Shown here piece after piece: positions 6,573 to 38,448 of a DNA stretch of 64,000 nt. The DNA is taken from NCBI RefSeq assembly GCF_017874375.1, contig NZ_JAGGLK010000002.1:124001-188000 (forward strand), written 5' to 3'. This DNA comes from Methanohalophilus levihalophilus (GTDB taxonomy: Archaea > Halobacteriota > Methanosarcinia > Methanosarcinales > Methanosarcinaceae). The translations under genes and the position numbers were made by a program. The notes under the pieces were generated by a model that was not told the origin of the DNA, did not search any database, and saw only the letters and a program-made list of their open reading frames with translations. How positions within the stretch are numbered: the stretch's first letter is position 1; each line of letters starts with the position of its first letter.

Positions 6573-7496
6573 ATGAAAGCTCTTGTGACAGGCTGTGCTG
6601 GCTTTATTGGTTCTCACATAACTGAAAGTCTACTGGAAAAAGGGATTGAAGTTGTTGGAATTGATTGTTTTACAGATTATTATCCAAGAAGATATAAGGA
6701 AAACAACTTGAAAAATGCTCAAAAGAACAAAAATTTCACTCTTTTTGAGGAAGACATTTTGTCGTTAGAAGAGTTTCCGGAAGTAGATTATATTTTTCAT
6801 CAAGCGGCACAGGCAGGAGTTCGAAAAAGCTGGGGTTCAGACTTTAGCCAATATACAAGTGATAATATCTTAGTAACACAAAAATTATTAGAATATTACA
6901 AAAACAAGTCAATTAAAAAGTTTGTTTATGCTTCTTCATCGTCTGTTTATGGGGATGCAGGGTTACCAATGAAAGAGGATTTGTTACTAAAACCTGTTTC
7001 TCCTTACGGCGTAACCAAGCTTGCCGCTGAAAATTTGTGCTATTTGTATTATAAGAATTATGGTATCCCAACGGTTTCACTAAGGTACTTTACGGTTTAT
7101 GGTCCAAGACAGAGGCCTGAAATGGCAATTCATCTTTTTGTAAAAGCAATTCTTGGAAATGAACTAATAACAGTCTATGGCGATGGCAAACAAACGAGAG
7201 ACTTTACTTATGTTAGTGACATTGTGGATGCAAATCTCAAAGCTGCATTTGGTGATGTAGAGGGGGAGGTTTTCAATGTCGGTGGGGGCACAAAGATTAG
7301 TGTCAATGAATTGATTAGGATACTTGAAGAAAACATTGGTATGACAGCCAATGTGGAATATATTGAAAAGCAGAAAGGAGACGTGAACGACACTCTTGCA
7401 GATTCAAACAAGATCAGAATACTTGGATGGGAACCAAGTGTTAAAATTCACGAAGGCATCGGAAATTTTGTAAAATGGTACAAGGGGTTGGGTTAA
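6573..7496 (+). CDS. NAD-dependent sugar-nucleotide epimerase (UDP-glucose / UDP-glucuronate 4-epimerase type)
   Basis: An extended SDR enzyme of 307 aa. The NAD-binding motif is TGCAGFIGSH (residues 6-15); the catalytic triad region shows ASSSSVYG and YGVTK (Tyr-xxx-Lys, about 148-152); then SLRYFTVYGPRQRPEMA, the substrate loop typical of UDP-hexose and UDP-uronate epimerases. It would supply a galactose- or galacturonate-type nucleotide sugar to the glycan locus, and galU at 28898 makes the UDP-glucose precursor. Substrate is not resolved by sequence. It precedes the flippase gene by about 90 bases. Confidence 0.85.
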   Translation: MKALVTGCAGFIGSHITESLLEKGIEVVGIDCFTDYYPRRYKENNLKNAQKNKNFTLFEEDILSLEEFPEVDYIFHQAAQAGVRKSWGSDFSQYTSDNILVTQKLLEYYKNKSIKKFVYASSSSVYGDAGLPMKEDLLLKPVSPYGVTKLAAENLCYLYYKNYGIPTVSLRYFTVYGPRQRPEMAIHLFVKAILGNELITVYGDGKQTRDFTYVSDIVDANLKAAFGDVEGEVFNVGGGTKISVNELIRILEENIGMTANVEYIEKQKGDVNDTLADSNKIRILGWEPSVKIHEGIGNFVKWYKGLG

Positions 7497-7589
7497 CTTA
7501 GAATCCAAAATCGGAGTTCGAAATAGAAAATATAAACCAGAAGTGTACATGTTTATTTTAGTTCCAATGGGTAAGGATGAGACTAGTTG

Positions 7590-9155
7590 ATGAATGATCT
7601 CCATTTAAGCAATTCCCTTAAGACAATCATAAGAGGATCGGGAATTGGTTTTATAGGTGTTTTTTTCGGAACCTTTATTGGTTACATATCAAGGATGCTA
7701 ATAGCTCAGTTTTTGGGACCGGACGGATATGGTCTCATATCCCTTGGCTATTCAGTCATGATGATCTCAGCAACGATTTCATTAATGGGTTTGAGCACTG
7801 GCGTCCAGAGATATATCGCATATTATAGCGGAAAAGGAGACGAAAGAAGACTAAAAGGGACAATAGTATCTTCATTGAAAATAATTGTTCCAATGAGTAT
7901 CTTCTCAATGGGAGTTGTTTTAGTAGGCTCTGATTGGATCTCCAGCAACATATTTCATGAAGACAACTTAAAACCAGTATTAATAGTATTTTCGATTGGC
8001 ATCCCATTTTGGACACTATCAACTTTTTTCAACTCTATATACATCGGATTCCATCAAATTAAATACCAAGTATACACAATGTATCTGTTTAAAGATTCAG
8101 CCAAATTATTAATGATCCTTATTCTTTTACTATTAGGGTACGATGTATTGGGGGCTGCTATTGGTTGGATTATTGCAGTAATAGGGATGACTATTTTATC
8201 CTTCTACTTCCTTACAAAAAAAGTATTATCACCTTCTATAGAAAAAGTAAAAGCTATTTCAGTGGATAAGGAACTCTATTATTTCTCTTTTCCTTTAATT
8301 TTTGCAGGACTAGCGAGTTTGATAACGGGTTGGACAGATACATTTATGCTTGGATATTTTGCAACTTCCTCAGAAGTTGGCATATATAATGCAGCTTTAC
8401 CAACATCCCAACTATTACGCATGGTGTTAAGTCCAATTGGGCAAATACTATTTCCAGTATTAGCAACACTGTACGCTGAAAGAAAATTGAGACATCTGGG
8501 AAACATATATTCTATTGTCACAAAATGGATATTTTCTATTGTATTTCCAGGTTTTTTATTAATGGTACTGTTTTCAAATGATATTTTGGCAATTTTGTTT
8601 GGTGAGGCTTATGTGTCAGGAGCAAATGCGCTTGCAATATTAGCATTCGGAGTGTTTATCTCAGCAACAGTAGGGCCAGCACAGCAAATCATAACAGTGT
8701 ATGGAAAAACAAAAACTATCATGTGGGGCAGTTCGTTCACAGCAATTATAAATATAATTTTAAATTTCTTATTAATACCGCTCTATGGGGTTAGCGGAGC
8801 TGCAATTGCAACGTCTATCTCAATCACATTAGTTAGCATATTTCATCTGATCTTTGCATATCGAATTGGAGGAACTCATCCTTTCAGAAACTCGTTTATA
8901 AAGCCCTTCGTATCTGCACTATTTGCGATAATAATCGTGTTTGAAGTTTCTCAACGATTGAACCAAAGTTCATTTGTGGCATTAATTTTTGGAACTATAT
9001 TGTTTGGCATTGTGTATTTACTTTTAATTTATTTAACAAAGGGATTTGAAGAAGAAGACTTAATGTTATTGAGTGATCTAAATGAGAAGTTAAACATAAA
9101 AGCGAGTTGGATTACAAAGGCAATTAATAAGTTTCCGTCTAGCAGAAAACCCTAA
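7590..9155 (+). CDS. Oligosaccharide flippase (Wzx / MATE-like)
   Basis: A highly hydrophobic 521-aa membrane protein with about 12-14 predicted membrane helices and the early motif of polysaccharide flippases (RMLIAQFLGPDGYGLISLGY, residues about 36-55). It would move the lipid-linked glycan across the cytoplasmic membrane so that AglB can use it outside. I chose the ATG at 7590, one codon into a TTG-initiated frame, with AGGATGA upstream. It lies next to the sugar epimerase and converges on the large minus-strand glycan operon. Confidence 0.85.
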   Translation: MNDLHLSNSLKTIIRGSGIGFIGVFFGTFIGYISRMLIAQFLGPDGYGLISLGYSVMMISATISLMGLSTGVQRYIAYYSGKGDERRLKGTIVSSLKIIVPMSIFSMGVVLVGSDWISSNIFHEDNLKPVLIVFSIGIPFWTLSTFFNSIYIGFHQIKYQVYTMYLFKDSAKLLMILILLLLGYDVLGAAIGWIIAVIGMTILSFYFLTKKVLSPSIEKVKAISVDKELYYFSFPLIFAGLASLITGWTDTFMLGYFATSSEVGIYNAALPTSQLLRMVLSPIGQILFPVLATLYAERKLRHLGNIYSIVTKWIFSIVFPGFLLMVLFSNDILAILFGEAYVSGANALAILAFGVFISATVGPAQQIITVYGKTKTIMWGSSFTAIINIILNFLLIPLYGVSGAAIATSISITLVSIFHLIFAYRIGGTHPFRNSFIKPFVSALFAIIIVFEVSQRLNQSSFVALIFGTILFGIVYLLLIYLTKGFEEEDLMLLSDLNEKLNIKASWITKAINKFPSSRKP

Positions 9156-9227
9156 ATTAAAATTTAGCGTGAAAAAGAATGAAAAGGCAATAATAAATTC
9201 AAGCTTAAATAATATTGTTAAACACAT

Positions 9228-10412
9228 TCACTTAAATTGTTCATATAATTCCAAATACTCAAAAACGATTTTCCCATAGTCATATTGTTCTCTCTTTCTA
9301 AGTCCATTCTCACTCAGCTTCTTGCATAAATCATAGTTCTCAAATAACTTGGATATAGCTTCTGCTAATGCATATGAATCTCCACTTTTAACAATGGAAC
9401 CAATATTTCCATTTTCAAATAGTTCTGGACATCCACATTTATCAGTTGTAACAACTGGAACGCCCAAACACAACGCATCTAATATCGTCCAGCCGTAGCC
9501 TTCAGATAAGGTAGGTAAGCACAAAATTCTGCATCCAGATAAAAAATCGAGATAGTCTTTTTTGCTCATAGTTCCATAGAAAAATACATTTTCAGAAATG
9601 CCCATTTCTTCAGACATTTTCTTATACATATTTATTAAATATCCATTTGATAGAAGGCATAATTTCACAGAGGGGTAATCATTTTTTAAAATGGATATTG
9701 CGTTCAGCAAGTATTCAACGCCTTTTCTCTCAATTGCCATGCTTGGGAAAACAATTTTAAAATTGTTTTCATCTGCGCAGTACGAATAATTATTATAAAG
9801 TTCTAAATCAACACCATAGTTGATTATCTTTATGTCTTTTGGAGAGACATATTTTTTCACTGATTTTTTTACATATTGATTTGGAACAATTACTTTATCA
9901 GCATCCATGATAGTTTTCTTAAACAATGTACTAAATAGGGGGTTCAATAGATATTTGCTTTTGAAAACAGATTTATGAATTATTCTTTCCAGCCCTGCTT
10001 TTCCAACAAGATAGTCATTCTCAAAAACTTTGTGGGGGAATTGCACCGGGCCAATAATTAAATTCTTATCGTCCAAATTAGATAATAAAGGGATTAAATT
10101 GTATCCCTTTTCATACTGAAATTTCTCGCAATGGTGAATGACATTCACTTTGCTTTCAACTTTCTTATATGCTTTATAAATAGAATAGTTATATTTTGGG
10201 ATCTGAATGTTGATACTGCCCCTAAAATTGAGAGGTAAAAAATCAATGTTTTCAAAACAATGCCTGTAGGAAATAGTATTTGCTGTACTGTGGACATCGA
10301 AGCTTGCATCTTTATTAAGAGCTTTTAATATCCAAAAAGATGGATCTCTTCCTGGATCACAAGTTACGTCTCGATAATCGGATATGAAAAAAAGTCCATT
10401 TCTTGGCAACAT
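9228..10412 (-). CDS. Glycosyltransferase family 4
   Basis: 394 aa, GT-B fold. The C-terminal domain holds the retaining GT4 signature: IVFPSMAIERKGVEYLLNAI, then FFYGTMSKKDYLDFL, and EGYGWTILDALCLGVPVVTT with the E-x7-E-like pattern altered to E-x7-D (about 300-320). It would add a sugar from a nucleotide donor to the growing glycan on the cytoplasmic face. It is the last gene of the minus-strand operon, three bases after the legB stop. Donor and acceptor are unknown. Confidence 0.82.
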   Translation of the reverse strand: MLPRNGLFFISDYRDVTCDPGRDPSFWILKALNKDASFDVHSTANTISYRHCFENIDFLPLNFRGSINIQIPKYNYSIYKAYKKVESKVNVIHHCEKFQYEKGYNLIPLLSNLDDKNLIIGPVQFPHKVFENDYLVGKAGLERIIHKSVFKSKYLLNPLFSTLFKKTIMDADKVIVPNQYVKKSVKKYVSPKDIKIINYGVDLELYNNYSYCADENNFKIVFPSMAIERKGVEYLLNAISILKNDYPSVKLCLLSNGYLINMYKKMSEEMGISENVFFYGTMSKKDYLDFLSGCRILCLPTLSEGYGWTILDALCLGVPVVTTDKCGCPELFENGNIGSIVKSGDSYALAEAISKLFENYDLCKKLSENGLRKREQYDYGKIVFEYLELYEQFK

Positions 10413-10415
10413 AAT

Positions 10416-11426
10416 TTATTCTGTTAATACCCTTTTCAATTCTTCTTTGGTAAGCAGTTTCGCATTTTCGGATGAATATTCGGTATCGAGCACTTTTTTA
10501 AAGGTCGCCGGAATGTCATCTTCGGCAATCATAGCCTCTGGCAAAATGATGAACATGTTTTCATCTTCGAAGGCATTGGTCGATTCATCTTCCGACATTA
10601 ACTCCTCGAATAATTTTTCTCCGGCCCTTTTTCCTATAATTTGTATCCCGATATCCTTCTGGTCGTAGCCATATTTAGAAGAAAATTCTTCAATCATTGC
10701 ATTTGCCAAGTCATCCATCCGCATTGAAGGCATTTTAAGAATGAAAATTTCTCCCCCTTTAGACATTTCAGGAACTTTTAATACTAATTCAGAAGCCTCT
10801 TTTATGCTCATAATAAATCGAGTCATATCCATATTTGTAACAGTTAAAGGTGATCCGCTTTGGATCTGCTTCATGAAAAGTGGAATAACCGAACCCCTAG
10901 TGTGTGTCACATTGCCAAAGCGGACACAAGAGAATGCCGTTTCGTGTTTACCTTTATACAAATTGGCAGAAACCGTTAAGCGTTCAGCTAATAATTTTGT
11001 AGCACCCATTACGTTTATTGGATTTACTGCTTTATCCGTACTTATAGTAACAAACTTTCTGACTCCACCATCAAGTGCAACATCAATAAGATTTTGCGTT
11101 CCAACAGCATTCGTTTTAACAGCTTCAAAAGGATTATATTCACAAAGGGGAACATGTTTTAAGGCAGCAGCATGGAAAACCACGTCAACATTTTCAATTG
11201 CTCTTCTTAATCTCTCTTTGTCTTTGATGTCCCCAACTAATAATCTTATCTTTTCAGATTTTAATTCTTGATCCAGATCAAACAATCCAGTTTCATTTGT
11301 ATCTAAAACTCTTACAGCTTTGGGTTCATACTTAAGGATACTTCTTACAATCTCACTTCCAATTGAACCAACACCGCCTGTTACGAGAATAGTTTTGCCT
11401 TTGTAGAAATCGCGTAATTCAATCAC
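10416..11426 (-). CDS. legB: UDP-GlcNAc 4,6-dehydratase (LegB/PglF-like, short CapD type)
   Basis: First step towards 2,4-diamino sugars: converts UDP-GlcNAc to the 4-keto-6-deoxy form. 336 aa without the membrane part of full CapD. NAD motif TGGVGSIGSE (16-25), AALKHVPLCEYNPFEA (about 88-103), STDKAVNPINVMGATK. The catalytic Tyr of ordinary SDRs is Met here (M-GAT-K), a known feature of this dehydratase family. Starts with GTG overlapping the legC stop (GTGA). With LegG, LegI and LegF in the same operon I read it as the legionaminic route; the 5-inverting PseB alternative is less likely because of LegG. Confidence 0.85.
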   Translation of the reverse strand: MIELRDFYKGKTILVTGGVGSIGSEIVRSILKYEPKAVRVLDTNETGLFDLDQELKSEKIRLLVGDIKDKERLRRAIENVDVVFHAAALKHVPLCEYNPFEAVKTNAVGTQNLIDVALDGGVRKFVTISTDKAVNPINVMGATKLLAERLTVSANLYKGKHETAFSCVRFGNVTHTRGSVIPLFMKQIQSGSPLTVTNMDMTRFIMSIKEASELVLKVPEMSKGGEIFILKMPSMRMDDLANAMIEEFSSKYGYDQKDIGIQIIGKRAGEKLFEELMSEDESTNAFEDENMFIILPEAMIAEDDIPATFKKVLDTEYSSENAKLLTKEELKRVLTE

Positions 11427-12556
11427 AAACCCACCTCAAAAAATTTTTGTATTTGACTTACCATATAGTCCATTTCACTTTTACTAAGATTAGGATACAT
11501 TGGAAGAGTTAAAACGTGATCTGACACATTCTCTGTAATTGGTAAATTTGGATTGTATCCTAATACCTGTTTATAAAAATGAGTCAAATGAACGGGGGAA
11601 AAATAAACTTTTGTAAATATACCCTTTTCTTTAAGGTGATTCATTAATTCATCACGGTACTCATTTACATAAATGGTAAACATTTGGTATACATGGAAAT
11701 AATTTTCTTGTGGTACACTAATTTTTATGGAAGAGAGGTTATCAAGCGCTGACATCAAATATCGAGCGTTATTTCTTCTCATATTAATGATCTCATCTAT
11801 CATTTTAAGTTGAGATCTACCTAGCGATGCAGAAATGTTTGATAGACGGAAATTATAGCCTAGTGTAACATAGTCAAATAACTCTGTAGACGAAAAATAA
11901 TCATGAGATTCCAATCTACCATGAGATCTTATTAACTTTAATTTTTCGTATATCTCCTTGGAATCAGTTGTGATTGCACCACCTTCCCCTGTGGTGATGA
12001 TCTTATTTTGACAAAAACTGAACATTGAAGAATCACCAAAAGTTCCTACTTTTTCCCCGTTAACTTCGGCACCAAAAGCTTCTGCTGAATCTTCAATCAA
12101 GACTAAGTTATAGTCGTCTGCTATTTCTCTTAAGGATACTATATCGCAAGGGCAACCGCCATAATGTATTGGGATAATAGCTTTTGTTTTATCAGTTATA
12201 CTTTCGACAACAGATTCAGGATCCAAGCCATACGTATTTTCTTCAATATCTGCAAAGATGGGTTTTGCATCCACAAACAAAGGTGCATTTGCTGTAGAAA
12301 TAAATGTAAATGAAGGTACAATAACTTCATGACCCTTTCCAATTCCATATGCACTTAAAGCTGCATGTAATGCGGAAGTTCCAGAATTAAAAGTCACTGC
12401 ATACTTAGAGTTTATGAATTGGTTTATTTCGTCTTCAAATTTTCCAACATCTGGTCCAGTAGCCCAGTTAGCTCCCATTTTAATATTGTTCACGACACTG
12501 TTAATGTCTTCAGTGGTATGAAAGATCTTAAAAAGTGGGACTTTCCATTCATCCAT
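11423..12556 (-). CDS. legC: DegT/DnrJ/EryC1 aminotransferase (LegC-like)
   Basis: A PLP enzyme that aminates the 4-keto sugar made by LegB. 377 aa, normal for the family. The substrate and PLP loop is FNSGTSALHAAL (about 56-67), EDSAEAFGA holds the PLP-binding Asp, and FCQNKIITTGEGG holds the PLP lysine (about 180-192). The stop overlaps the legB start, which argues for consecutive reactions. LegC is inferred from pathway context; PglE-type enzymes have the same fold and reaction. Confidence 0.83.
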   Translation of the reverse strand: MDEWKVPLFKIFHTTEDINSVVNNIKMGANWATGPDVGKFEDEINQFINSKYAVTFNSGTSALHAALSAYGIGKGHEVIVPSFTFISTANAPLFVDAKPIFADIEENTYGLDPESVVESITDKTKAIIPIHYGGCPCDIVSLREIADDYNLVLIEDSAEAFGAEVNGEKVGTFGDSSMFSFCQNKIITTGEGGAITTDSKEIYEKLKLIRSHGRLESHDYFSSTELFDYVTLGYNFRLSNISASLGRSQLKMIDEIINMRRNNARYLMSALDNLSSIKISVPQENYFHVYQMFTIYVNEYRDELMNHLKEKGIFTKVYFSPVHLTHFYKQVLGYNPNLPITENVSDHVLTLPMYPNLSKSEMDYMVSQIQKFFEVGL

Positions 12557-12631
12557 ACTTATTCCTACCCATGTGATTTACTTAAACATTTCTTAGAAAT
12601 AGTTCGCGTCAAGATTTCTTGATTATTGCCT

Positions 12632-13768
12632 TTATTTCCTGTATGCAGGAAAATATCCAGAAGTCATCAAATCAGATACATCTATTCCCTCATATTTGGC
12701 TTTTAAATCACAAAGGAGATCATATAGCTCTTGTTTGTGTATTTTCTTGTATATGTAAAAAATTTCAGTTGTGCTTGAAAACGAAGATTTGAACTTGTAT
12801 AAACTGTCTCCAGCTTTGTAACCACCGCCCAGTTCGAATATCTTATAACCTTCTGCCTTTGCCCATATTATTGCTTCATACAAGATTAGATTTGTAGAAC
12901 ATAAGTTCCTGAAATCTGGATTGGAACCAGATAAATAATAGTGTACAAAATCATGATCATTCAAAAATACAGAGGCAGCAATTGGATTGTTGTTGTATTC
13001 AGCTATGAATAGTGTGGCATTTTCGCCTAAGAGATCAAATAAATTGTAAAAAAAAGATTTTGGGAAAAAGTATTTGGTATTCGCGTCAATCCTCTCCATA
13101 GTACGTGTGTATAACTGATATAGGGATTCAATGTCCTTCTTACTATTACTTTGGAAGACTTTGACACCGCTTCTCTAGCTTTTTGAAATACAATTCCGGT
13201 TAGCCTTCTTGAATTTTTTCACTATGTCTTCAATAGAAGAGTTTAGATCTACATATACTACACTATTAGAGATTTCAAGTTGTTCAGAACCATTTCTTAG
13301 CAAGGAATGGTTTTTAATGAAGGGATGCAAGCGGATGAATTCTGCAACAATATTTTGTTCAACACAATATTCATGGAATGCTTCAAAAAAGCTAGACATA
13401 AGTTTTTCATATGAAGCACTATTGCTCAATTTAAATTTCGATACTAATGGGCCACTAAAAAACCAAGGTGAACTTATGTCATAAACTTTTCCGTAGTCTG
13501 ATAACATTGGTTTATAAAAGTCTAATTCAAACAAAGGTCTCTTAAAAAAGGGATATAAGACGTACTTCTTTTCATTCCCATAAAATGCTAAAAGGGCTTC
13601 ACCTCCAAAGTTCTGGAAAACTTCAAGAGGTACATCTTCAAATAATTTCATATAAGTAGGAGTAAAGTATAAATCTTTACTTTCAAGACTCTCTAACAGA
13701 TTATTCCATCGTATAAGATCAGAACCGCTATTATGAAGTATTTCAAGTTTCCATTTTTCTTTGGCCAT
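12632..13768 (-). CDS. FemAB/GNAT-fold aminoacyl- or acyltransferase interrupted by in-frame TAG (pyrrolysine candidate)
   Basis: Two open stretches of 197 and 180 codons lie in one frame, separated only by a TAG at 13175-13177. Together they make a 378-aa protein with the duplicated GNAT fold of FemAB-like transferases. Residues 1-190 are the first half, with the FKKANRN motif just before the TAG; after it RSGVKVFQSN and ESLYQLYTRTMERI continue the family without loss, and FELGGGYKAGDSLYKFKSSF is the family's C-terminal signature. The TAG takes a spot that is usually a variable polar or charged residue. Options are pyrrolysine insertion, readthrough, or a one-base nonsense mutation. It may acylate an amino sugar. 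Starts one base after the preceding stop. Confidence 0.75.
13175..13177 (-). other. In-frame TAG codon (codon 198 of the FemAB-like gene)
   Basis: CTA on the plus strand, TAG in the coding frame. The reading is ...CISKS-TAG-RSGVKVF... with no frame change on either side. Confidence 0.9.
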
Positions 13769-13769
13769 C

Positions 13770-14906
13770 TCAAACGTCCTTTCTTTTGATTAATCCTAGA
13801 ACATACTCCATATCTTCTTCTGTATATCTTTGGTCAATTGGAATTGTTAATATATGCTTTGAAATATCCCAAGAAAGCGGAAAGTCTTTTTTGTCAATGT
13901 CATCAGGTAACTCCCAATGTATTGGAGGATAAACAGAATTTTCGATGAGTAGTTTTTTCAATCTATCTCTATCATCAACCGATATAGGAAATCCAAGTGG
14001 GCAGACTCCTTCAGGAAGAGTCTCAAACAATGGAACTATAGTCTTTTCGTTTTTCAAATTGTATAAAAGATATTTAAAGTTTCTGCGACGCTGGGTTATG
14101 ATAAAATCGTAGTTGAATTTGTCCAGTAGAAATGCCGTAATTTTTGACATCTTAGCAGGTTTACTATATTTCAACAAAAAACGCTCTGATTTTTGAAAAA
14201 AATATGTGTAAAAAGGCTTAAGGTTACTGATTCTATATTTCACGTATAAATATTTGGTTAGGAGTCCTAAAAATCGAAGTGCTATGTACAAACGATGGGA
14301 AATATCAGAATTTAAGGGAGAATCAATTTCCCTCCCATTATCACTAAATGTGATCAAAGCTCCATCGGGAACTGGTATCCATTTTCTATAACTTGATATA
14401 CTAATATCCGCACAATGGCCAATCATGTTGCTGTTGCATTCAGTCAAAAAGGCTTGAACAACATCTTCTATAATTATAAAAGAGTTCCTTTCTTGAATCT
14501 CTTTTAAACCAGATAGATTTTGAGGAAATCCAAAATAGTGTATAACTAAAATCACTTTTGTACGTTCCGAAAGCTTGGAACATATATCATCAAGATCAAT
14601 TGATAGATTTTCATCTACTTTGTAAAAAACAAAACTAGTCTTATCTTTGAATGGTTTAAGAACTTCTTCACACAAATATGATGGAAGAAGCACCTCATCT
14701 TTTATAGATAACCCAAGAGTTTTGATAGCATAGTGTAATGCATCCCTGCCACTTGATACGAATGATCTCCTTCCGTTTGATGAGTACTTGTAAAACTGTT
14801 TATGATTTTTTTTGAAAATAGTGTTAGTGGGCAAATAAAATTCACTGCCGATGCCACCGAATGGTGGAGTTCCATTGGCTCGATTGCTTTCTTTTCGTAG
14901 TATCAT
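13770..14906 (-). CDS. DegT-like PLP-dependent protein
   Basis: 378 aa. Fold-type I features: the SSGRDALHYAI loop (about 50-60), IIEDVVQAF with the PLP Asp, and SSYRKWIPVPDGAL with a lysine at the Schiff-base position (about 175-188). It is divergent from LegC, with a basic, aromatic insertion after residue 200, so its substrate probably differs. The ATG overlaps the stop of the methyltransferase gene (ATGA) and its own stop is one base from the FemAB-like start. The trio therefore looks like one module that makes and decorates an amino compound on the glycan. Function beyond the fold is inference. Confidence 0.65.
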   Translation of the reverse strand: MILRKESNRANGTPPFGGIGSEFYLPTNTIFKKNHKQFYKYSSNGRRSFVSSGRDALHYAIKTLGLSIKDEVLLPSYLCEEVLKPFKDKTSFVFYKVDENLSIDLDDICSKLSERTKVILVIHYFGFPQNLSGLKEIQERNSFIIIEDVVQAFLTECNSNMIGHCADISISSYRKWIPVPDGALITFSDNGREIDSPLNSDISHRLYIALRFLGLLTKYLYVKYRISNLKPFYTYFFQKSERFLLKYSKPAKMSKITAFLLDKFNYDFIITQRRRNFKYLLYNLKNEKTIVPLFETLPEGVCPLGFPISVDDRDRLKKLLIENSVYPPIHWELPDDIDKKDFPLSWDISKHILTIPIDQRYTEEDMEYVLGLIKRKDV

Positions 14907-15565
14907 TTTTTTGCAGAAATAACATGATGGCAAATTTTGTCTTTACGATTATTTATTGTCCTCATACTGTATTCAACATCAAAACATTCAAAATGACTAA
15001 AAATTTCAGTTAATTCATCGATATCTGTGAAATGGATTGTTCCTTTACCAGCATAAGGGCCTTCCTTTATTTCAGCAAAGGTATTTTTTTCTAATTCTTT
15101 TCCTAATCCATATCCCAACGACCGTTTTTCCACTATCATTGAAAAAAACTTGCCACCAGGTTTCAACACCCTATGCACTTCATTAACTATAATGCAAATA
15201 TTAGACTATTTATTGTGTTGGACTGCAACTATATCAATCACTGCATCGAAAAAATCGTCTGCAAAATTCAAGGCTTCAATATCCCCTTCAATGAAATCTC
15301 CGCTGAGGTTTTCGTCGCTGAAACGTTTTTTAGCTATTGATATTGCTGTTTTAGATCCATCAATTCCAATAGCAGAGAATCCTTCTCGAGCCAAGAACCA
15401 AGTTTCTGCACCGGTTCCACATCCAATATCCAAGATGTGAACGTCATTTCTAAAATCGTTATTATAAAAATTTCGTGCTATAAATCTAATCAATTCTTCA
15501 GGAGGATACTTCCCCCATTCCTGATTTCTATAAACTTCTTCCCACTTTGAGTCCCAAGAGCCCAT
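14903..15565 (-). CDS. Class I SAM-dependent methyltransferase interrupted by in-frame TAG (pyrrolysine candidate)
   Basis: Read through the TAG at 15206-15208 this is a 220-aa methyltransferase. Motif I is HILDIGCGTGAETWFLA (about 44-60), followed by GIDGSKTAI and GDIEALNFADDFFDAV. The region just before the TAG is DIVAVQHNK and just after it SNICIIVNEVHRVLKPGGKF, which is the expected run from motif IV into the conserved 'RVLKPGG' motif. Without readthrough the first product lacks half the fold and the second lacks the SAM site. Substrate unknown; co-transcribed with the DegT-like and FemAB-like genes. Confidence 0.75.
15206..15208 (-). other. In-frame TAG codon (codon 120 of the methyltransferase)
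   Basis: CTA on the plus strand. Frame is unchanged across it (15565 and 14903 are in one frame); the junction reads VQHNK-TAG-SNICII. Confidence 0.9.
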
Positions 15566-15575
15566 TTTGTAACCC

Positions 15576-16727
15576 TCACAAAATGAATTTTTTATTTATC
15601 AATTTATTATCAATCTCAATTTTATATAACAAATTCGCTATTTTTATTCCAGTGTTCTCTGAGGCATAAGGGTTTGGACAATTTTTAACGTTCTCTTTGA
15701 AATCTTTATCTGATAAAGCTTTCTTGATCGCAGAGACGATTTCATGTCTGTCATATTCAACATCAATAACATTTGTGGAACGTTCACGCCCACTTTGTCG
15801 AGTGCCGATGTTCACAGCGGGTATTTTGAAGAATGGAGACTCGACAATCCCACTGCTTGAATTGCCAATAATTGCGCTGGACACAGCCATTAGGCTCAAA
15901 TAGACATCTCGGGTTAGGTTTTTATATATTTTTATATTCGGATACTCTGAAAAATCTTTTATAACTTCAATCGCCAATTTGCCACCAGAATCTGCATTCG
16001 GATATATAACTATAGTCTGCAAGCCTAATTCAACTATTGATTCCATAGTTTCGCGCATGTGATCTGCTGTGTGCTCAATTTCATATGTAACTGGATGCTG
16101 GACAACAAGCAGAAGTGGATCATTCAAATTGATACTAAAGTAATTTTCAAGCTCTTGTGGTTCAATTGATTTAAAATCTTGGAGATCGTTACCAGGGTCT
16201 CCCACCATATGTATTCTCCATCCTTCTTCTCCCATCTTCGAAAGCCTTTCAGCACTTTTGGAAGTTCCAGGAAAATGTATATGGGCAAACTTAGTTATAG
16301 CATGCCTTATTGAGTCATCAATGCATCCACCCTCTGTAACATCACCACCTGAAATATGCGCAACCGGAATGTTCAGAAATGCAGATGCTATTACTCCAGA
16401 AGCTGCCTCCCAACGATCACCTTCAACAACTACAATATCTGGTTTTATTTGCTCAAGAGCTTGAGAAATCTTGATAATACCCAGACCTGCAGATGTGGCC
16501 ATGCTTGTCTTTGAATCACTACTCAATAAAATATCTAGTTCCGATGCAATTGAAAAACCATCTTTCTTTATATCATTTATTGTATAGCCGAATTCATGCG
16601 ATAAATGCATTCCAGTAGCAATTAAACACAATTCCAATTTTGGGTGGGAATCAATAGCTTTTAATGTAGAGCGCATTAAACCATAATCTGCACGGGTTCC
16701 TGTTATTACGGCAATTTTTCTAACCAT
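15576..16727 (-). CDS. legG: UDP-sugar 2-epimerase, hydrolysing (LegG/NeuC-like)
   Basis: Hydrolyses and epimerises the UDP-2,4-diacetamido sugar to free 2,4-diacetamido-hexose, or UDP-GlcNAc to ManNAc in the sialic acid version. 383 aa, family length. GTRADYGLM (about 10-18), VVEGDRWEA, AHISGGDVTEGGCIDDSIRH and the C-terminal GNSSSGIVE are characteristic. The ATG at 16727 is preferred to a TTG six codons upstream. It sits between legI and the methyltransferase on the same strand. LegB and LegC in the operon favour the legionaminic substrate. Confidence 0.88.
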   Translation of the reverse strand: MVRKIAVITGTRADYGLMRSTLKAIDSHPKLELCLIATGMHLSHEFGYTINDIKKDGFSIASELDILLSSDSKTSMATSAGLGIIKISQALEQIKPDIVVVEGDRWEAASGVIASAFLNIPVAHISGGDVTEGGCIDDSIRHAITKFAHIHFPGTSKSAERLSKMGEEGWRIHMVGDPGNDLQDFKSIEPQELENYFSINLNDPLLLVVQHPVTYEIEHTADHMRETMESIVELGLQTIVIYPNADSGGKLAIEVIKDFSEYPNIKIYKNLTRDVYLSLMAVSSAIIGNSSSGIVESPFFKIPAVNIGTRQSGRERSTNVIDVEYDRHEIVSAIKKALSDKDFKENVKNCPNPYASENTGIKIANLLYKIEIDNKLINKKFIL

Positions 16728-16807
16728 CAAATACCAACATCCCAAATTTAAGTTTGTGGTGGTTCTAGAGATATTAAATGTTTTTATTTGGATTTTGTCT
16801 ATTCGGG

Positions 16808-17854
16808 TTAATTTAACATAAGTTCATCTAAAGTTATTATTGTATCTTTTTTTATTTCCTGTTTAGATTTTGAACCAACAATTTGAGCCAAGTTTTTTGG
16901 AGAGATCCCTGTTCCAGGCCTTTTAAATGAAATCATATCTTCTGTGATTTCAGCTCCCATTGGGATGTCAATTTTAGCCACAATGCTTCTTCTGGCAACA
17001 CTACGTACTTCAAGCTCAGCATCTACAGGTGCTTTAATAGGAGAACCCAATGATTTTTCAACCATCCGTATACCACGAATCATTTCTTTTAGTTTTTCAG
17101 GTTCTAGGGATGCTTTATGATCGGGTCCCGGAAGATTTCGATCTATTGTAAAGTGCTTCTCTATAACACATGCTCCCATAGCTACAGCTGCAATAGAAGC
17201 ATAAATATCGGGGGTATGATCTGAATATCCAATCGGTAAACTTAGGCTATCAGACATTGTTTTCATGGCTCTCAAATTACAGTCCTCTATTCTTGCTGGA
17301 TAGTTTGAAGTACAATGCAAGAGAATTAAAGAGTTACATCCGATTTCTTTGATTGCCGAAACGGCTTCTTCAACTTCTTCAAGAGTTGACATCCCCGTAG
17401 ATAAGATAATTGGAAGATCTTTTTTTGCTATATATTTAAGAAATGGGTGATTTGTAATTTCACCGGAACTGATCTTGATTAAAGGTAGCCCAAGGGTTGT
17501 AAGCAAATCTGCACTCATTTCATCAAAAGGGGTAGACAAAAAGAGAATATCTTTTTTCCTAGCGTAATCTAATAAATATTCATGTTCTTCTTTTGATAGT
17601 TCTAATCTTTTGATCATATCAAGTTGAGATTCAGAAGCATCAGTAGTCATTTTTTGGTATTCAGCCTTTGGTGCATTAATACTAACAACTTCTTCTGATA
17701 CAAATGTCTGAAATTTCACGGCATCGGCACCCGCATCAACTGCTGCATCAATCAACTCTTTTGCTAATTCAAGATTACCATTATGGTTAACTCCTGCTTC
17801 TGCAATGATAAAGCAAGGAGCGTCTTTACCTATTAACCGATTCTTGATTTCCAT
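16808..17854 (-). CDS. legI: Nonulosonic acid synthase (LegI/NeuB family)
   Basis: Condenses the C6 sugar with phosphoenolpyruvate to a C9 nonulosonic acid. 348 aa with a TIM barrel and a C-terminal SAF (antifreeze-like) domain from about residue 285. Family motifs: IIAEAGVNHNGNLELAKEL (16-34), AVKFQTF, IKISSGEITN, LILLHCTSNYP, PIGYSDHT, VIEKHFTIDRNLPGPDH. Its start overlaps the end of legF by 29 bases, with AGGAG seven bases before the ATG. Whether the product is legionaminic or N-acetylneuraminic acid depends on the precursor enzymes. Confidence 0.92.
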   Translation of the reverse strand: MEIKNRLIGKDAPCFIIAEAGVNHNGNLELAKELIDAAVDAGADAVKFQTFVSEEVVSINAPKAEYQKMTTDASESQLDMIKRLELSKEEHEYLLDYARKKDILFLSTPFDEMSADLLTTLGLPLIKISSGEITNHPFLKYIAKKDLPIILSTGMSTLEEVEEAVSAIKEIGCNSLILLHCTSNYPARIEDCNLRAMKTMSDSLSLPIGYSDHTPDIYASIAAVAMGACVIEKHFTIDRNLPGPDHKASLEPEKLKEMIRGIRMVEKSLGSPIKAPVDAELEVRSVARRSIVAKIDIPMGAEITEDMISFKRPGTGISPKNLAQIVGSKSKQEIKKDTIITLDELMLN

Positions 17855-18542
17855 CCTTTGTCTCCTGAATCAACAATTCTGCAAGTTTAAAGTCGATTTC
17901 ATTGTCAATATCAACACTCTTGTCAACAGGCATAATGAAGGGAACAACATTGCCTGAATAAAAATCATTGTTTTTGTACAAATCGAGAACAGTACTTATA
18001 TATATTGCTCCATTCTGCCTATAAACTTTTGGTAGATCTTGTCTGCGTTTTTTTAAATATTCATCTCCTAATAGAGGCTTCAAGTGTGCATTGTCAAACT
18101 TGAAATCCCAATATGGAGAGTGCTCTACTTCACACATACTAAAAACTGAGCTGTAATCATTTGCAACAAATAGCTCAATTGCCCTGTCAATGTCATGTGT
18201 GTCTCTTAAGGGTGAAGTCGGTTGCAAAAGGACAACGACTGAAGGATTGTAATCATGTTTTAAAAATTCAATTGCATGAAAAATTGTGTCAATTGTCGGG
18301 GAATCATCTTTCGCAAGTTCTGCAGGCCTCTTAATAATATTTGCGCCACACCTTTCTGAAGTATTAGCAATAGGTTCACTATCTGTAGAAACAAATACTG
18401 CGTCAATGTATTTTGAATCTAGGGCGGCTTTTATAGAATAATAAATTAAAGGCATGCCTGCCAGTTGTCTGATATTCTTCCCTGGCAGACCTTTTGATCC
18501 ACCGCGGGCAGGGATAATGGCAATGATTTTCTCTTTATTCAC
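17826..18542 (-). CDS. legF: CMP-nonulosonic acid cytidylyltransferase (LegF/NeuA)
   Basis: Activates the nonulosonic acid with CTP. 238 aa; N-terminal nucleotide loop IIPARGGSKGLPGKNIR (9-25), VSTDSEPIA, LLQPTSPLR, and the metal-binding end VDKSVDIDNEIDF. Begins with GTG one or two bases from the stop of the upstream GT-B gene. The overlap with legI shows coupled translation. The product is the donor for a nonulosonate transferase, for which the adjacent GT-B-like gene is a candidate. Confidence 0.9.
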   Translation of the reverse strand: MNKEKIIAIIPARGGSKGLPGKNIRQLAGMPLIYYSIKAALDSKYIDAVFVSTDSEPIANTSERCGANIIKRPAELAKDDSPTIDTIFHAIEFLKHDYNPSVVVLLQPTSPLRDTHDIDRAIELFVANDYSSVFSMCEVEHSPYWDFKFDNAHLKPLLGDEYLKKRRQDLPKVYRQNGAIYISTVLDLYKNNDFYSGNVVPFIMPVDKSVDIDNEIDFKLAELLIQETKDGNQESVNR

Positions 18543-18546
18543 ATAA

Positions 18547-20070
18547 TCAACTCATAAATTCAGATTTTTGAATGATGGCATCGGAAATCAATTTGCCAGT
18601 TTTTCCAATGTTTTTGAACATAGTAGTTTTCAAATATTCTTGTTTTTTTACCAAATTGTTGTGCTCAAGGTCGTCGTTTAAAATCGATGAAACTGATTCA
18701 ATTAAAGAATCGATATCATTAAAAGGTGATGTGCCTCCAAAAAATGCTAAATCTAGGTTGGGTGGATACGATGTTCCAGTGAAATTGATCTGAAATACGG
18801 GAATATCCATTGCTATAGCTTCTGATATTCCTGTGGAAACTGTAGATATGATGGCATCAGAATTTGCTAATACTTCGTAAAAATCAACTTCATTCCTGAT
18901 GAATATTGTACTTGCCAACTCACTTTGATTAAAAATATCCTCAATACCTTTTTTTACATGTGATTCATTCAAATTTTCGCGTGGATGCAATTTTACTATT
19001 AGATTAATAGATTCGGGCATAACAGAGCGCATTTTCTTCAAAGATAGAAGTGTTAAGTCATTGTCGTAAGGTTCCCCTTCAGAGATAAAAGTAACAATTT
19101 TGTTATTGGTTGGAATAGCGTATTCCCTCTTAAGTCCATTTGAATTTCTTTGTTTCAGATTTTTGAGATAGTCAAATCTGGGAGCACCCAATGGCAAAAT
19201 TGATACGGTGTCATCTGTCCATTTACTCAATTCACCTTTAGTAGGTTCATCATACGCAAAAATATAATCTGAAATATATGGCAAATGGCCGCCTCCGCCA
19301 ATACCATGCTGAATTATAAATGTTGGTATACTTCTTTCAGCAGCAATTTCAAAAGCTGTCGTAAATACAATTGAAACTACTCCTTTAAAATCATAGGAAT
19401 CAAACACCCTTCTAAAAACGTAATATTGTACTAATTCTTCTGTCAAATGTAATTTTATAAAAAAACGGTCTAGTTTAAGAACTTTATTTACATATTCTTC
19501 GACTTCCAAATTCATCAATAATGAAAAATATTTCTTTGATTCCAGCAGAGTATTGACATAATCTCGAATTGGAAGATTTTTCAATTCGACCTCAAAAAAT
19601 AAAATTTTGACATTATGAAAACTATCAAAATCAGACTTATATCTACGATATACATCCCTGAAAGTAATTACCAAAATCTTTTTCGAATTGCTAAGATTTT
19701 TGATTACCGGAATGGCTGATATTGTGTGGTCTTTTGTATTGAGTACAAATAAATAATCAAAGCTTTCAGAGCGAATATCGTTAAAAGAACTTATTTCCGG
19801 ATACTTCTTTTTGTAATACAATTGCTCAAATGGCTTTAAGAGAATAGTCCATAAAAGTAGAGTTGGAATGAGAAAGAGGCCTTTGCAAATATTAAGTACC
19901 TTGTTTCTGAAACTTTTATACTCGTTTGAGTAATATGCCCTTATCATAATTCGATTAGGGATCTTAGAGAAAATTCTATTTTGCTCAATTAGTCCATGGA
20001 ATTGATAATATACGCTTTTCCAAATATCAATCCTAGATTCATCCAAACCATCTATGATATTCGCTTTCAT
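18547..20070 (-). CDS. GT-B-like surface glycan protein, candidate nonulosonate transferase
   Basis: 507 aa. It has a basic amphipathic or membrane-leaning segment at about 63-85 (GLFLIPTLLLWTILLKPF) and GT-B-type elements: FIIQHGIGGGG (about 250), LPLGAPRFDYL, LIVKLHPRENL (about 355) and SDAIISTVSTGISEAIAMD (about 400-418). The 'QHG' and 'HPRE' patterns occur in capsule and sialic acid related transferases. It is directly ahead of legF, so using the CMP-sugar is a reasonable guess. I cannot assign a family with certainty; an unrelated glycerophosphotransferase-like role is possible. Confidence 0.6.
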   Translation of the reverse strand: MKANIIDGLDESRIDIWKSVYYQFHGLIEQNRIFSKIPNRIMIRAYYSNEYKSFRNKVLNICKGLFLIPTLLLWTILLKPFEQLYYKKKYPEISSFNDIRSESFDYLFVLNTKDHTISAIPVIKNLSNSKKILVITFRDVYRRYKSDFDSFHNVKILFFEVELKNLPIRDYVNTLLESKKYFSLLMNLEVEEYVNKVLKLDRFFIKLHLTEELVQYYVFRRVFDSYDFKGVVSIVFTTAFEIAAERSIPTFIIQHGIGGGGHLPYISDYIFAYDEPTKGELSKWTDDTVSILPLGAPRFDYLKNLKQRNSNGLKREYAIPTNNKIVTFISEGEPYDNDLTLLSLKKMRSVMPESINLIVKLHPRENLNESHVKKGIEDIFNQSELASTIFIRNEVDFYEVLANSDAIISTVSTGISEAIAMDIPVFQINFTGTSYPPNLDLAFFGGTSPFNDIDSLIESVSSILNDDLEHNNLVKKQEYLKTTMFKNIGKTGKLISDAIIQKSEFMS

Positions 20071-20083
20071 GATAACTTTAGTG

Positions 20084-21094
20084 TCAACTCAGCTGATCTT
20101 TTATAAGCTGGGCAAACTCTCCTTTCTTATTAGAGGAAATTTCGTAACATTGGACATCGGCAAAGAAGTTATCAACAATAGACCGACGTTCAACTTCATA
20201 CTCATGTAAGTCCATTTTGCTTTTCATAATGTATGAGTAGGTAGCAACACTGTGATGAGAATTTGCTCTGAAGTGAGTAAGAGTTTGAGTGCTGTCAAAG
20301 AGGAGTTTTGCAGCTTCTTTACTATCCAATTCGCTAATCCCCAGTGGGCCGTCTCTAAGGAAATAGCATTGATTAGGATAAGAAGTACCAATGATATCTT
20401 GATTCAAATTTATAGATCCTCGATTATTGTAAAAAGCAGAGATTACAGGGGTCTTAAGAACTTTATCTCTAAAAATTTTACTAAACTTGCTTTTGCTTGA
20501 CATTTCTATATTACCAGTATCAGTTTCTGGAGAAATTCCTACCTCTCTGGGAAACGAATATGCAATATTTTCTCCTAAAATTACAGTGTCATCGGCATAA
20601 AGTTTTGAATTCGGGAAATGTGACAAAAGGTTAAGTATTGTAGAAGTCTTTCCCATATTGCTCAATCCCGAAATAAGAATATCTTGTCCGTTTAAGGAAA
20701 TACATGCTGCATGCACAGGAGTAACATTGTGTTTCAGTAAGTGAATTGAAATGGATGACCCAATAATATGGGACACATTACCAAATTTCCAAAAGAAAGG
20801 TGAGAAGGTCAGTTCAGTTTTGTCACATTCCAATCCTTTTATTGCTGCACTAAGATTAAATATAGAGGGGGCACCCCAATTGAGATACAGAGTTTCTCCA
20901 TCCCATCTAAATTTGTCTCCCACACGTTCAGCAGAAACAAAACCTTTTGGATCTATTTCTTTTATCTTGATAATAATATCAGGATCTTCAATGTCTTCTA
21001 CAAGAAAAACGTCTGGTAATTCAATGTTGTCAATCGCTAGAGATCGATCGGAGCAAATTGTAACCAAACCATGAATATTATAGTTAAATACCAT
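20084..21094 (-). CDS. HPr kinase-like P-loop protein
   Basis: 336 aa. Residues 1-120 have no clear family. The second half carries a P-loop ISGLSNMGKTST (about 145-156) and YADDTVIL, which corresponds to the HprK Walker B/catalytic region. Such HprK-like proteins occur in exopolysaccharide and peptide-modification clusters without any HPr partner, and are thought to phosphorylate another small molecule or peptide. Start ATG at 21094 has AGGTGA eight bases upstream; an overlapping GTG at 21106 is the alternative. It lies in the glycan operon between two glycosyltransferases, two genes from asnB. The substrate is unknown. Confidence 0.65.
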   Translation of the reverse strand: MVFNYNIHGLVTICSDRSLAIDNIELPDVFLVEDIEDPDIIIKIKEIDPKGFVSAERVGDKFRWDGETLYLNWGAPSIFNLSAAIKGLECDKTELTFSPFFWKFGNVSHIIGSSISIHLLKHNVTPVHAACISLNGQDILISGLSNMGKTSTILNLLSHFPNSKLYADDTVILGENIAYSFPREVGISPETDTGNIEMSSKSKFSKIFRDKVLKTPVISAFYNNRGSINLNQDIIGTSYPNQCYFLRDGPLGISELDSKEAAKLLFDSTQTLTHFRANSHHSVATYSYIMKSKMDLHEYEVERRSIVDNFFADVQCYEISSNKKGEFAQLIKDQLS

Positions 21095-21102
21095 TATTCC
21101 AC

Positions 21103-22251
21103 TCACCTTAGCAAGGACCGATAAAGTTCACTATATTGCTTTACAATAGAATTTGGATAAAAAGTCTCTAACTGATTAGTTGAGTATTGCAAAGTATTTT
21201 TATCATCATCAAATACGTCAATGATAGCATTTGCCAAGCCAACAGAATCCATTTTCGGAACTAGCATCTTGTCATTCCCCAAAACTTCAGGGATGCCCCC
21301 TACATTTGTAGCAACTATATTTTTTGAGAAATACATTGGATCAAATAAGGCAATACCAAAAGCTTCTTCAATTGCAGGCAAACAAAATATATCACAAGCT
21401 TTTGTCAATATAAGCTTTTCTTTATCTGTGATGTATCCCAAAAAGATTACATTCTTGTCTATTTTTTTGCTTTGACATAGCCTCTCTAAATTTTCTTTTT
21501 CTGGTCCAGTACCCGCAATTACTAAAAGCGCAGTTGGATGTTTATCTAGGACAGTAACCATGGCTTCAATGAGGTAATTTAAACCCTTTTGAAGATGAAG
21601 TCTTGATACCGATAGAATAATTTTTGAGCTGTGTTTTATGCCGTATTTAGCTTTTAAATCGATTTCATCGGAATTCGTGATTTCTATATTTGGCGGATTG
21701 AAAATATTGTGTATCACTTCTATTTTGTTTTCAGAGCTTCCTGAGCACAAAGCGTCATTTTTCATCGAGTTGCTTACTAGGACGTGTTTGTCACAGTATC
21801 TTAGTGTAAATTTTATTAGATAGCTTTTGATTTTACTTCTCCTTAAACCATAATCAATGCTTTCAACCAATTGTATGTCTTCTCCATGAGATGTTATAAC
21901 TACAGGAGCTTTGTGAATTGGCTTGGTTATGACTGCCAAAAATCCAGATGAAAATGCAAAATGAGCATGAATGATATCAGGTTTAATTTTTAAAACATTG
22001 CTGATAAACCTATAAAGCATTCTGCTTCCATCCTGGAAAACATTCGTATCCTTTTTCCTTAAAGAAATGTTTACAAGAGGATATTTACCGTAAGATTCGA
22101 TGAACCCATTTGCTTCATAAGGAGTAAACAAAGAAACTTCATTACCATTTTTGGATAATTCTTCAGCCAGCCATTTAACCTGATATTCTGCTCCACCGAC
22201 CTGTGGGAAAAATGTCGTAGTTAACATAGCAATTTTATTTTTACCATTCAT
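21103..22251 (-). CDS. Glycosyltransferase family 4
   Basis: About 382 aa, complete GT-B. N-domain start IAMLTTTFFPQVGGAEYQVKW without the usual gaps, then ITSHGEDIQ; C-domain ILSVSRLHLQKGLNYLIEAM, VIAGTGPEKENLERL, FLGYITDKEKL and EEAFGIALFDPMYF. The E-x7-E second glutamate is replaced by Asp (EAFGIALFD), so the pattern is E-x7-D. It transfers a sugar to the lipid-linked glycan. The N-domain precedes the C-domain, in contrast with the permuted gene at 24065. ATG at 22251 is preferred to a GTG overlapping the asnB stop. Confidence 0.85.
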   Translation of the reverse strand: MNGKNKIAMLTTTFFPQVGGAEYQVKWLAEELSKNGNEVSLFTPYEANGFIESYGKYPLVNISLRKKDTNVFQDGSRMLYRFISNVLKIKPDIIHAHFAFSSGFLAVITKPIHKAPVVITSHGEDIQLVESIDYGLRRSKIKSYLIKFTLRYCDKHVLVSNSMKNDALCSGSSENKIEVIHNIFNPPNIEITNSDEIDLKAKYGIKHSSKIILSVSRLHLQKGLNYLIEAMVTVLDKHPTALLVIAGTGPEKENLERLCQSKKIDKNVIFLGYITDKEKLILTKACDIFCLPAIEEAFGIALFDPMYFSKNIVATNVGGIPEVLGNDKMLVPKMDSVGLANAIIDVFDDDKNTLQYSTNQLETFYPNSIVKQYSELYRSLLR

Positions 22252-22264
22252 AACAATCAAACAT

Positions 22265-24064
22265 TTAATTCTCACTTAAAAATTCATTATACCACATAGT
22301 ATAGCATAGGCATTTCCATAATAAAACACTATAATCTCCCTTTCCTGCACGATGCCTTTCACGTATTTTCTGGATCTCACTATTATTCAAGTAAGGTGTG
22401 CTATTAATTTTTTCTTCAGATAGGAACTCATCGAGTGTGTCTTTCTCAAACCATTCCCTAATTGGAACATCGAAACCATGTTTTTTTCTTTCCATAACTT
22501 CTTTTGGCAAGAGATCATTAGCACAGAGCTTTAACAAATGTTTATTAAGCATTAAATTTGGAGGGATGGTAGACGTCAGTTCTAGCAAATTGTGGTCTAA
22601 AAAAGGAACACGTGCTTCAAGGGACGTAGCCATGGTCATCTTGTCTACTTTCATTAAAAGATCATCCGGCAACCAGTAATTGATGTCGAACTTCAACATT
22701 GATTTCAAATAGTTGTCGTATTCATAAAAAAGATCAAGTGGAAGATTGGTATCATCAATTTGCAGGATGTTAGGATTGAGATGACCATTATCCCTCAGTT
22801 TCAAACGGTAGTAATAACTGTTTTTTTGTCCATTTCGAGAACCTGCATACAATGCGTACTTCTTGATTTTACTTTCTTCGATTATGCTGCCTAGTCTAAA
22901 AGCAGAGTTTTTGAGTACGCGAGGTAAATATTTTGAGAAATTATGAGCTTTCAATTCAGATTGATATCTCCCATATCCTGCAAATGCCTCGTCACCGCCT
23001 TCACCACTTAATATCACTTTTACTTTTTTCCTTGCAGTTTCAGATATCAGGTATGTGGGTAATATTGCAGGGTCTGCTAGAGGTTCATCAAGATGGTATA
23101 TCAGCTTGGGCAAAACAGAAGTGTTTTCAATATCAACCCATTCTTCAGTATGATCAGTTCCAAAGTGTTCTGCAATCCTTCTCGAATAAGGAGTCTCATC
23201 ATAATCTGAACCATAAAAACCAACAGAGAAAGTCTTTATTGGTTCATTAGACAATTCACTTGCAAATGACGTTATTATAGAAGAGTCCAATCCGCCTGAA
23301 AGGAAGGAGCCAATTGGAACATCGGCAACAAGTCTTTTTCGTACAGATTCCTTAAGAATTTCAAGAATTTTGTCTTTAAAGTAGCCTTCACTACCTTCTG
23401 ATGTTGTAAAATCTAAATTCCAATAGCTATTTGCATGGAATCCGTTTGCTCCGATTTTAATGAAGTGGCCTGGTTTTAGTTTAAAGATACCTCTAAACAT
23501 TGTCAAGGGCGCTGGTACATATCGAAATGTAAAATACTCACTTAGGGCTTCTTCCTTTATTTCTGGCTTAAGACCATATTCGATAAGGGATTTGATCTCG
23601 GAGCCAAAAATGAGTTTATCTTCAAAAAGAGAATAATACAATGGTTTTATGCCCAAACGGTCACGTGCAAGAAACAGTTCTTTTTTTTCAGTATCCCATA
23701 ATGCGATTGCAAACATTCCGTTAAACTTGTTCAGGCAATCATTTCCATACTCCTCGTATGCATGAACAATTGTTTCGGTGTCTGAATTTGTACTAAAAAT
23801 GTGGCCTCTTTTTTCTAGGTCTTCTCTTAACTCTCTGAAATTATATATCTCCCCATTGAAAACGACAACTATGCTTCCATCTTCGTTAAAAACGGGCTGG
23901 TGCCCTCCTGAGAGATCTATTATGCTTAATCTGCGCATTCCAATAGAGATTTGCTCATCTACATAGTAGCCAGCGTCATCGGGTCCTCGATGCTCAATGA
24001 CATCGCACATTTTTCTCAAAAGATGTTGATCTGACAGTCCGTAGACGCCTGCTATGCCGCACAC
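22265..24064 (-). CDS. asnB: Glutamine-hydrolysing asparagine synthetase family amidotransferase
   Basis: 599 aa. After the GTG start the sequence reads MCGIAGVYGL, giving the N-terminal nucleophile Cys2 of class II glutaminases; the C-terminal synthetase has the PP-loop FLSGGLDSS (about 245-253) and GEGGDEAFAGY. It would use glutamine and ATP to amidate a carboxylate. Within a glycan operon the target may be a uronic acid or nonulosonate carboxyl rather than free aspartate; both are possible. The GTG overlaps the stop of the permuted glycosyltransferase (TGAGTG region). Confidence 0.88.
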   Translation of the reverse strand: MCGIAGVYGLSDQHLLRKMCDVIEHRGPDDAGYYVDEQISIGMRRLSIIDLSGGHQPVFNEDGSIVVVFNGEIYNFRELREDLEKRGHIFSTNSDTETIVHAYEEYGNDCLNKFNGMFAIALWDTEKKELFLARDRLGIKPLYYSLFEDKLIFGSEIKSLIEYGLKPEIKEEALSEYFTFRYVPAPLTMFRGIFKLKPGHFIKIGANGFHANSYWNLDFTTSEGSEGYFKDKILEILKESVRKRLVADVPIGSFLSGGLDSSIITSFASELSNEPIKTFSVGFYGSDYDETPYSRRIAEHFGTDHTEEWVDIENTSVLPKLIYHLDEPLADPAILPTYLISETARKKVKVILSGEGGDEAFAGYGRYQSELKAHNFSKYLPRVLKNSAFRLGSIIEESKIKKYALYAGSRNGQKNSYYYRLKLRDNGHLNPNILQIDDTNLPLDLFYEYDNYLKSMLKFDINYWLPDDLLMKVDKMTMATSLEARVPFLDHNLLELTSTIPPNLMLNKHLLKLCANDLLPKEVMERKKHGFDVPIREWFEKDTLDEFLSEEKINSTPYLNNSEIQKIRERHRAGKGDYSVLLWKCLCYTMWYNEFLSEN

Positions 24065-26136: not shown

Positions 26137-26184
26137 AAACAAATTACCTCGTCAATTATGCCAAGAAGTTTGCTTCAGTAATCT

Positions 26185-38379: not shown

Positions 38380-38437
38380 GGCTTTCACGCTGAATTTGCT
38401 GAGGCAAACGGCTTTATAAACATATAGCAAAATAATA

Positions 38438-38448
38438 TTATATAAAAA
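38438..38448 (-). promoter_or_regulatory. TATA box of archaellum locus 1
   Basis: TTTTTATATAATATT on the minus strand, about 60-70 bases before the ATG at 38379; expected leader about 37 bases. Confidence 0.45.

Follow-up and report, generated by a model that had tools for sequence, protein, structure and literature searches.

The analysed stretch, hereafter the window, comprises 64,000 nucleotides (C2:124001-188000) of the 2.116-Mb, 98.8% complete genome of Methanohalophilus levihalophilus. It carries a surface-glycan gene cluster in which a FemAB-type gene contains a single in-frame TAG. The relevant features, in window coordinates, are as follows.

6573-26142, no strand assigned: surface-glycan cluster around the FemAB gene, delimited by gene context
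12632-13768, minus strand: FemAB/GNAT-type gene for a putative acyl- or aminoacyltransferase, 378 codons plus TAA, with one TAG
13175-13177, minus strand: in-frame TAG, codon 198 of the FemAB gene, presumably read as pyrrolysine (Pyl)
13777-13782, minus strand: AAAGGA, ribosome-binding-like sequence 5' of FemAB ATG 1, recognised by eye
14903-15565, minus strand: SAM-dependent methyltransferase gene of the same cluster, two genes upstream of FemAB, with a single in-frame TAG
15206-15208, minus strand: in-frame TAG, codon 120 of the methyltransferase gene
31185-32180, plus strand: isocitrate/isopropylmalate dehydrogenase-like (IPMDH-like) gene, with TAG at codon 321 of 331
32145-32147, plus strand: in-frame TAG, codon 321 of the IPMDH-like gene

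The FemAB-type gene and its neighbourhood

The cluster encodes a flippase-like protein, glycosyltransferases, a UDP-GlcNAc dehydratase-like protein, two DegT aminotransferases, and nonulosonate proteins of the NeuB/NeuC and cytidylyltransferase types, with NeuB and NeuC matching at the equivalog level. The NeuC, NeuB and cytidylyltransferase genes lie together at 15576-18542 on the minus strand and outline a sialic-acid-like nonulosonate pathway in a methanogen.

Inspection of the FemAB gene confirmed the TAG at codon 198 in a preserved frame, as the initial annotation had described, and placed the gene on the minus strand (13768 to 12632) with TAA as the terminal stop. The motifs singled out there (FKKANRN, RSGVKVFQSN and FELGGG) all occur in one frame, and the claimed absence of further lesions also held, with neither a second stop nor a frameshift relative to full-length relatives. 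Downstream of the TAG the frame stays open for 180 codons, with a codon score of +9.3; the remaining five frames over these bases each contain 6 to 16 stops and score between -3 and -34. When upstream sequences were read by eye, no ribosome-binding-like sequence was found ahead of the internal ATG at codon 223; we accordingly judged it unlikely that the 3' half is translated separately.

The protein scored above the cut-offs of Pfam FemAB, Acetyltransf_6 and FemAB_like, with 54.5 bits for the first (gathering cut-off 24) and 51.9 bits for the second (cut-off 22). The best stretches of Acetyltransf_6 (residues 185-318) and FemAB_like (178-315) span codon 198; that of FemAB (257-335) lies downstream of it. 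Profile A1 matched the FemX structures 1xe4, 3gkr and 4ii9 (E about 1e-26). The match to TIGR03019, the PEP-CTERM FemAB family, reached 63.6 of 260 bits, far under the equivalog cut-off, and that to NF047883, FemX proper (UDP-MurNAc-pentapeptide alanyltransferase), 39.6 of 500 bits. A single-sequence AlphaFold model had a mean pLDDT of 37, too low to place residue 198 in a structure. For detection of residue 198 by mass spectrometry, the tryptic peptide suggested initially would be SOR only, three residues long; Lys-C or chymotrypsin is needed.

In the neighbouring methyltransferase, the Pfam Methyltransf_25 match (residues 44-138) runs across TAG codon 120, a column occupied by K, E, D or L in ten distant relatives. 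Codon 321 of the IPMDH-like gene is a sense codon in all seven sister species (CAT, GAA/GAG or GGT), and the residues past the TAG can be aligned with those of the sisters. The window holds two other ORFs with a TAG, which we left out of account as mechanical: 63667-63999, and 37207-38496, where an extended start puts the TAG at codon 10.

Pyrrolysine genes and the use of TAG across the genome

Decoding of UAG as pyrrolysine would depend on the pyl genes, for which a check had been proposed, and pylT, pylS, pylB, pylC and pylD were all found. ARAGORN identified pylT as tRNA(Pyl) with a CUA anticodon; PylS, PylB, PylC and PylD each exceeded the NCBIfam equivalog cut-off and are encoded in one cluster. 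PylS was above its cut-off in 8/8 genomes of the genus. Known users of pyrrolysine are present as well: two of three MtmB-family matches carry one TAG (two Pyl-type mtmB genes), and mtbB spans an in-frame TAG. In M. portucalensis, of the same genus, pyrrolysine in MttB has been measured by mass spectrometry (PMC4928046).

The behaviour of TAG was compared with that of TAA and TGA in a sample of 476,001 bases made up of the window, twenty stretches of 20 kb and one of 12 kb. The 414 scored ORFs ended in TAA (203), TGA (202) or TAG (9). A stop was called run-on when at least 30 coding codons followed it and the sequence was coding before any ATG or GTG. By this measure TAG acts as a sense codon beyond the METHYLTRANSFERASES: run-on was found for 5/9 TAG, one of them the known mtbB, versus 3/201 TAA and 0/201 TGA (Fisher test, p about 7e-8). 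The three TAA cases proved by Pfam to be separate neighbouring genes. A lenient repeat of the scan (457 ORFs) flagged 5/10 TAG, 4/229 TAA and 0/214 TGA; the two additional TAA cases were adjacent genes whose domains do not cross the stop. The FemAB gene appeared only in the lenient scan, its score of 8.2 lying under the first cut-off of 12, and it fell short of the strict run-on test with a score of -0.4 for the 25 codons before the first internal start; it is counted as TAG-bearing by homology, not by codon score, and its TAG had been picked by a reader seeking oddities, a source of ascertainment. Seven TAG-bearing genes were seen in the 476 kb; extrapolation gives about 30 for a whole genome, provided that the sampled stretches are typical. 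TAG-ended ORFs resembling true ends were pylB, L039 and L038:1774-3024.

A similar pattern emerged in sister genome G033, where run-on was seen for 4/6 TAG versus 2/364 other stops; three of the four TAG cases are mtmB-like or mtbB-like as judged by sequence only, without a family test. TAG is avoided as a stop codon in both genomes (9/414 ORFs here, 6/372 in G033), true ends being fewer still.

Several individual genes outside the window illustrate the same use of TAG. A phosphodiesterase-like gene (L045) has TAG in the source genome only, with GAG, GAA, AAA or AAG (E or K) in 7/7 sisters. The gene for the KsgA/Dim1 rRNA dimethyltransferase has TAG at codon 210 in G033 only (L096:7876-8619, minus strand); the column reads CAG, CGG, AAG or AAA (Q, R or K) in 6/7 other genomes, and G035 is not aligned there. 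In a DUF11 surface-type protein (L044:11638-12378, plus strand), the TAG precedes a PEF-CTERM sorting signal scoring above its cut-off, and the protein would be left without its sorting tail if UAG went unread. The TAG of a histidine kinase gene (L038:352-1710, minus strand) separates HisKA from HATPase_c; PMC3639795 reports a comparable cluster of histidine kinases that includes a pseudogene of M. mahii. Two further observations come from sister genomes. The ksgA gene of G035 (C2:377225-377964) is apparently split, with a TGA within its second piece. In G033, a PP-loop protein gene, the product of which we take to be TtuA-like, has a TAG ahead of a C-terminal zinc-ribbon match that is under cut-off (L095:8938-9852, plus strand).

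The end of pylB itself forms a separate case. Its TAG (L035:5244-5246, minus strand) directly abuts the start of pylC in the arrangement TAG A ATG. The same ending beside pylC was found in 8/8 genomes of the genus and in 40/70 Methanosarcinaceae genomes representing 9/14 genera (L212-L281), the 70 ends comprising 30 loci and 40 stretches chosen to cover genera from the 98 with a match. Among the 30 loci with all three ends read, TAG ended pylB in 21, pylS in none and pylC in none, an excess whose significance is inflated by relatedness. That pylB ends in TAG in M. mazei, M. acetivorans and M. burtonii, and in TAA in M. barkeri, had been noted earlier (PMC2933860). A possible hypothesis is that the TAG provides pyrrolysine-dependent feedback on pylC, in that read-through at high pyrrolysine would carry ribosomes over the pylC start; the literature search, in the portions of papers it returned, found no published proposal of such a role.

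Codon 198 in relatives and the reading of the TAG

To compare codon 198 across relatives, we assembled 26 loci of the family, of which 21 were aligned at this column and five weaker ones were dropped for lack of a tblastn hit, and added ten relatives, all aligned there, from a search of 392 genomes of one phylum. The phylum search yielded better relatives; distant matches were present in 22/103 other genomes of the family. No match was found at E 1e-10 in any of the seven sister genomes, and a scan of genome contigs queried with the FemAB protein returned nothing related. The alignment of homologues proposed at the outset revealed a sense codon at this column in 31/31 aligned homologues. The residue varies (K, E, I, Q, S, T, M or R), and in some homologues the codon is one base away from TAG; in L106 and L107, the two best relatives, it is CAG, which a single C-to-T change would turn into TAG. 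The four full-length relatives (L106-L109) are 28-33% identical by tblastn. Measured against five relatives, the FemAB protein keeps 19/20 invariant columns after the TAG and 9/11 before it, and the C-terminal half is 32-37% similar, compared with 19-31% for the N-terminal half. Pyrrolysine as a conserved catalytic residue of the MtmB/MtbB/MttB kind does not fit column 198, which is unconserved.

The intact frame, the conserved 3' half and the complete pyl genes, together with the sense-like behaviour of TAG elsewhere in the genome and the sense codons at column 198 in relatives, bear on the suggestion of the initial annotation that this may be a full-length protein with pyrrolysine outside the methylamine methyltransferases. 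The suggestion is supported at the level of sequence. We consider it likely, with a probability of roughly 0.86, that the gene encodes a working, horizontally acquired FemAB/GNAT-type transferase into which the TAG drifted, UAG being read as pyrrolysine to give a 378-residue product. The gene, a member of the nonulosonate (sialic-acid-like) surface-glycan cluster, would have been gained laterally. The TAG would most likely have arisen by a single substitution from CAG, AAG or GAG, at a variable position just past an R-x-x-I-x-K segment. The endogenous tRNA(Pyl)-CUA and PylRS would then decode UAG at codon 198, yielding one protein of 378 residues with pyrrolysine as the presumed residue. Such a TAG would be tolerated because the lineage reads UAG largely as sense and seldom as stop. 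The FemAB TAG is one of several such cases and probably a neutral substitution in a variable column. A closer bacterial relative may exist beyond the one phylum searched, so we infer the lateral gain, as we do the transferase substrate and the neutrality of the TAG. Selection on the TAG form cannot be measured, since the gene is without a match in the sister genomes. The efficiency of decoding may also be limited: general amber suppression in M. acetivorans gave reporter UAG read-through of only 20-30% (PMC2933860), and the full-length FemAB yield may accordingly be partial.

An improbable alternative is that the acquired gene is a recent pseudogene, inactivated by a nonsense mutation that happened to be TAG, with only a 197-residue fragment made. 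An accessory gene without a match in any of the seven sisters would suit such a fate, and one recent nonsense change need not be accompanied by any other trace. However, of the nonsense mutations reachable in one step in the three window genes that bear a TAG, just 27% or so would produce TAG, and the internal stops in the sample that survived the domain check were all TAG, none TAA or TGA. The frame also lacks a frameshift and retains a well-conserved 3' half, and a UAG-reading tRNA and its synthetase are present, so a change to UAG is not a null.

It is less probable still that the UAG serves a dual product, being read mainly when methylamines and pyrrolysine are abundant, so that either the 197-residue fragment or the full enzyme is made; regulated read-through of this kind would couple the surface glycan to methylamine supply. 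Termination and read-through do compete at UAG in Methanosarcina (PMC2933860), and two TAG genes fall in one glycan cluster. Against this, the TAGs that were checked are species-specific, those of the IPMDH-like, KsgA and phosphodiesterase-like genes each occurring in 1/8 genomes, FemAB column 198 is variable, and the N-terminal fragment would lack the C-terminal GNAT match. That one base of codon 198 was misread or misassembled is highly improbable, even with an assembly in five contigs: the window holds two more TAG genes, several others lie elsewhere, and mistakes of this kind would have no bias towards TAG relative to TAA and TGA.

The case indicates that UAG-split ORFs in Methanohalophilus should be read through, as standard-code annotation would split several real genes or label them pseudogenes, among them two glycan-cluster enzymes and a core dehydrogenase. 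It also suggests that laterally gained genes can acquire Pyl codons; losing the pyl machinery would then become more difficult. A bolder and rather improbable extension holds that UAG is essentially a pyrrolysine sense codon in Methanohalophilus and that horizontally acquired glycan genes have been drawn into this use. The outer sugar coat would thereby depend on pyrrolysine, and through it on the pyl genes; by way of the cluster's two TAG genes, it would also react to the supply of methylamines.

Comparison with known systems

The FemAB protein matches both the FemX/FemA peptidyltransferases and the PEP-CTERM FemAB family, but far below the two equivalog cut-offs. As a TAG-bearing gene, its closest parallel is ThgL/Thg1 of Methanosarcina acetivorans, in which pyrrolysine was physically observed and found not to be essential for activity (PMC2933860); a paper whose title speaks of the 'appearance of pyrrolysine ... 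by neutral evolution' is cited in PMC4153887. In ThgL, as in FemAB, one in-frame amber occurs in just one species and is missing from the relatives. The two differ in the gene concerned, in the probable lateral gain of FemAB and in that pyrrolysine was seen in ThgL and is presumed in FemAB. In the same genus, the citrate synthase gene of Methanohalophilus mahii has an amber at position 177, was labelled a pseudogene and was proposed in 2010 to encode pyrrolysine (PMC3017947); it is a core metabolic gene, whereas FemAB is an accessory glycan gene. Computational candidates for pyrrolysine proteins are listed in PMC3639795, where no mention of FemAB came up. 'Ca. Methanomethylophilus alvus' has 16 TAG-interrupted non-methyltransferase genes and uses TAG for 1.6% of stops (PMC4153887). 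Low use of TAG as a stop is common to that organism and the source genome, although they belong to different orders of methanogens. Kivenson et al. reportedly argued, with proteomic backing, for an archaeal 'Pyl code' by which TAG is consistently read as pyrrolysine in some archaea, a description that the source genome fits. Pyrrolysine outside the methyltransferases is already established in principle, and the FemAB gene would be a further example.
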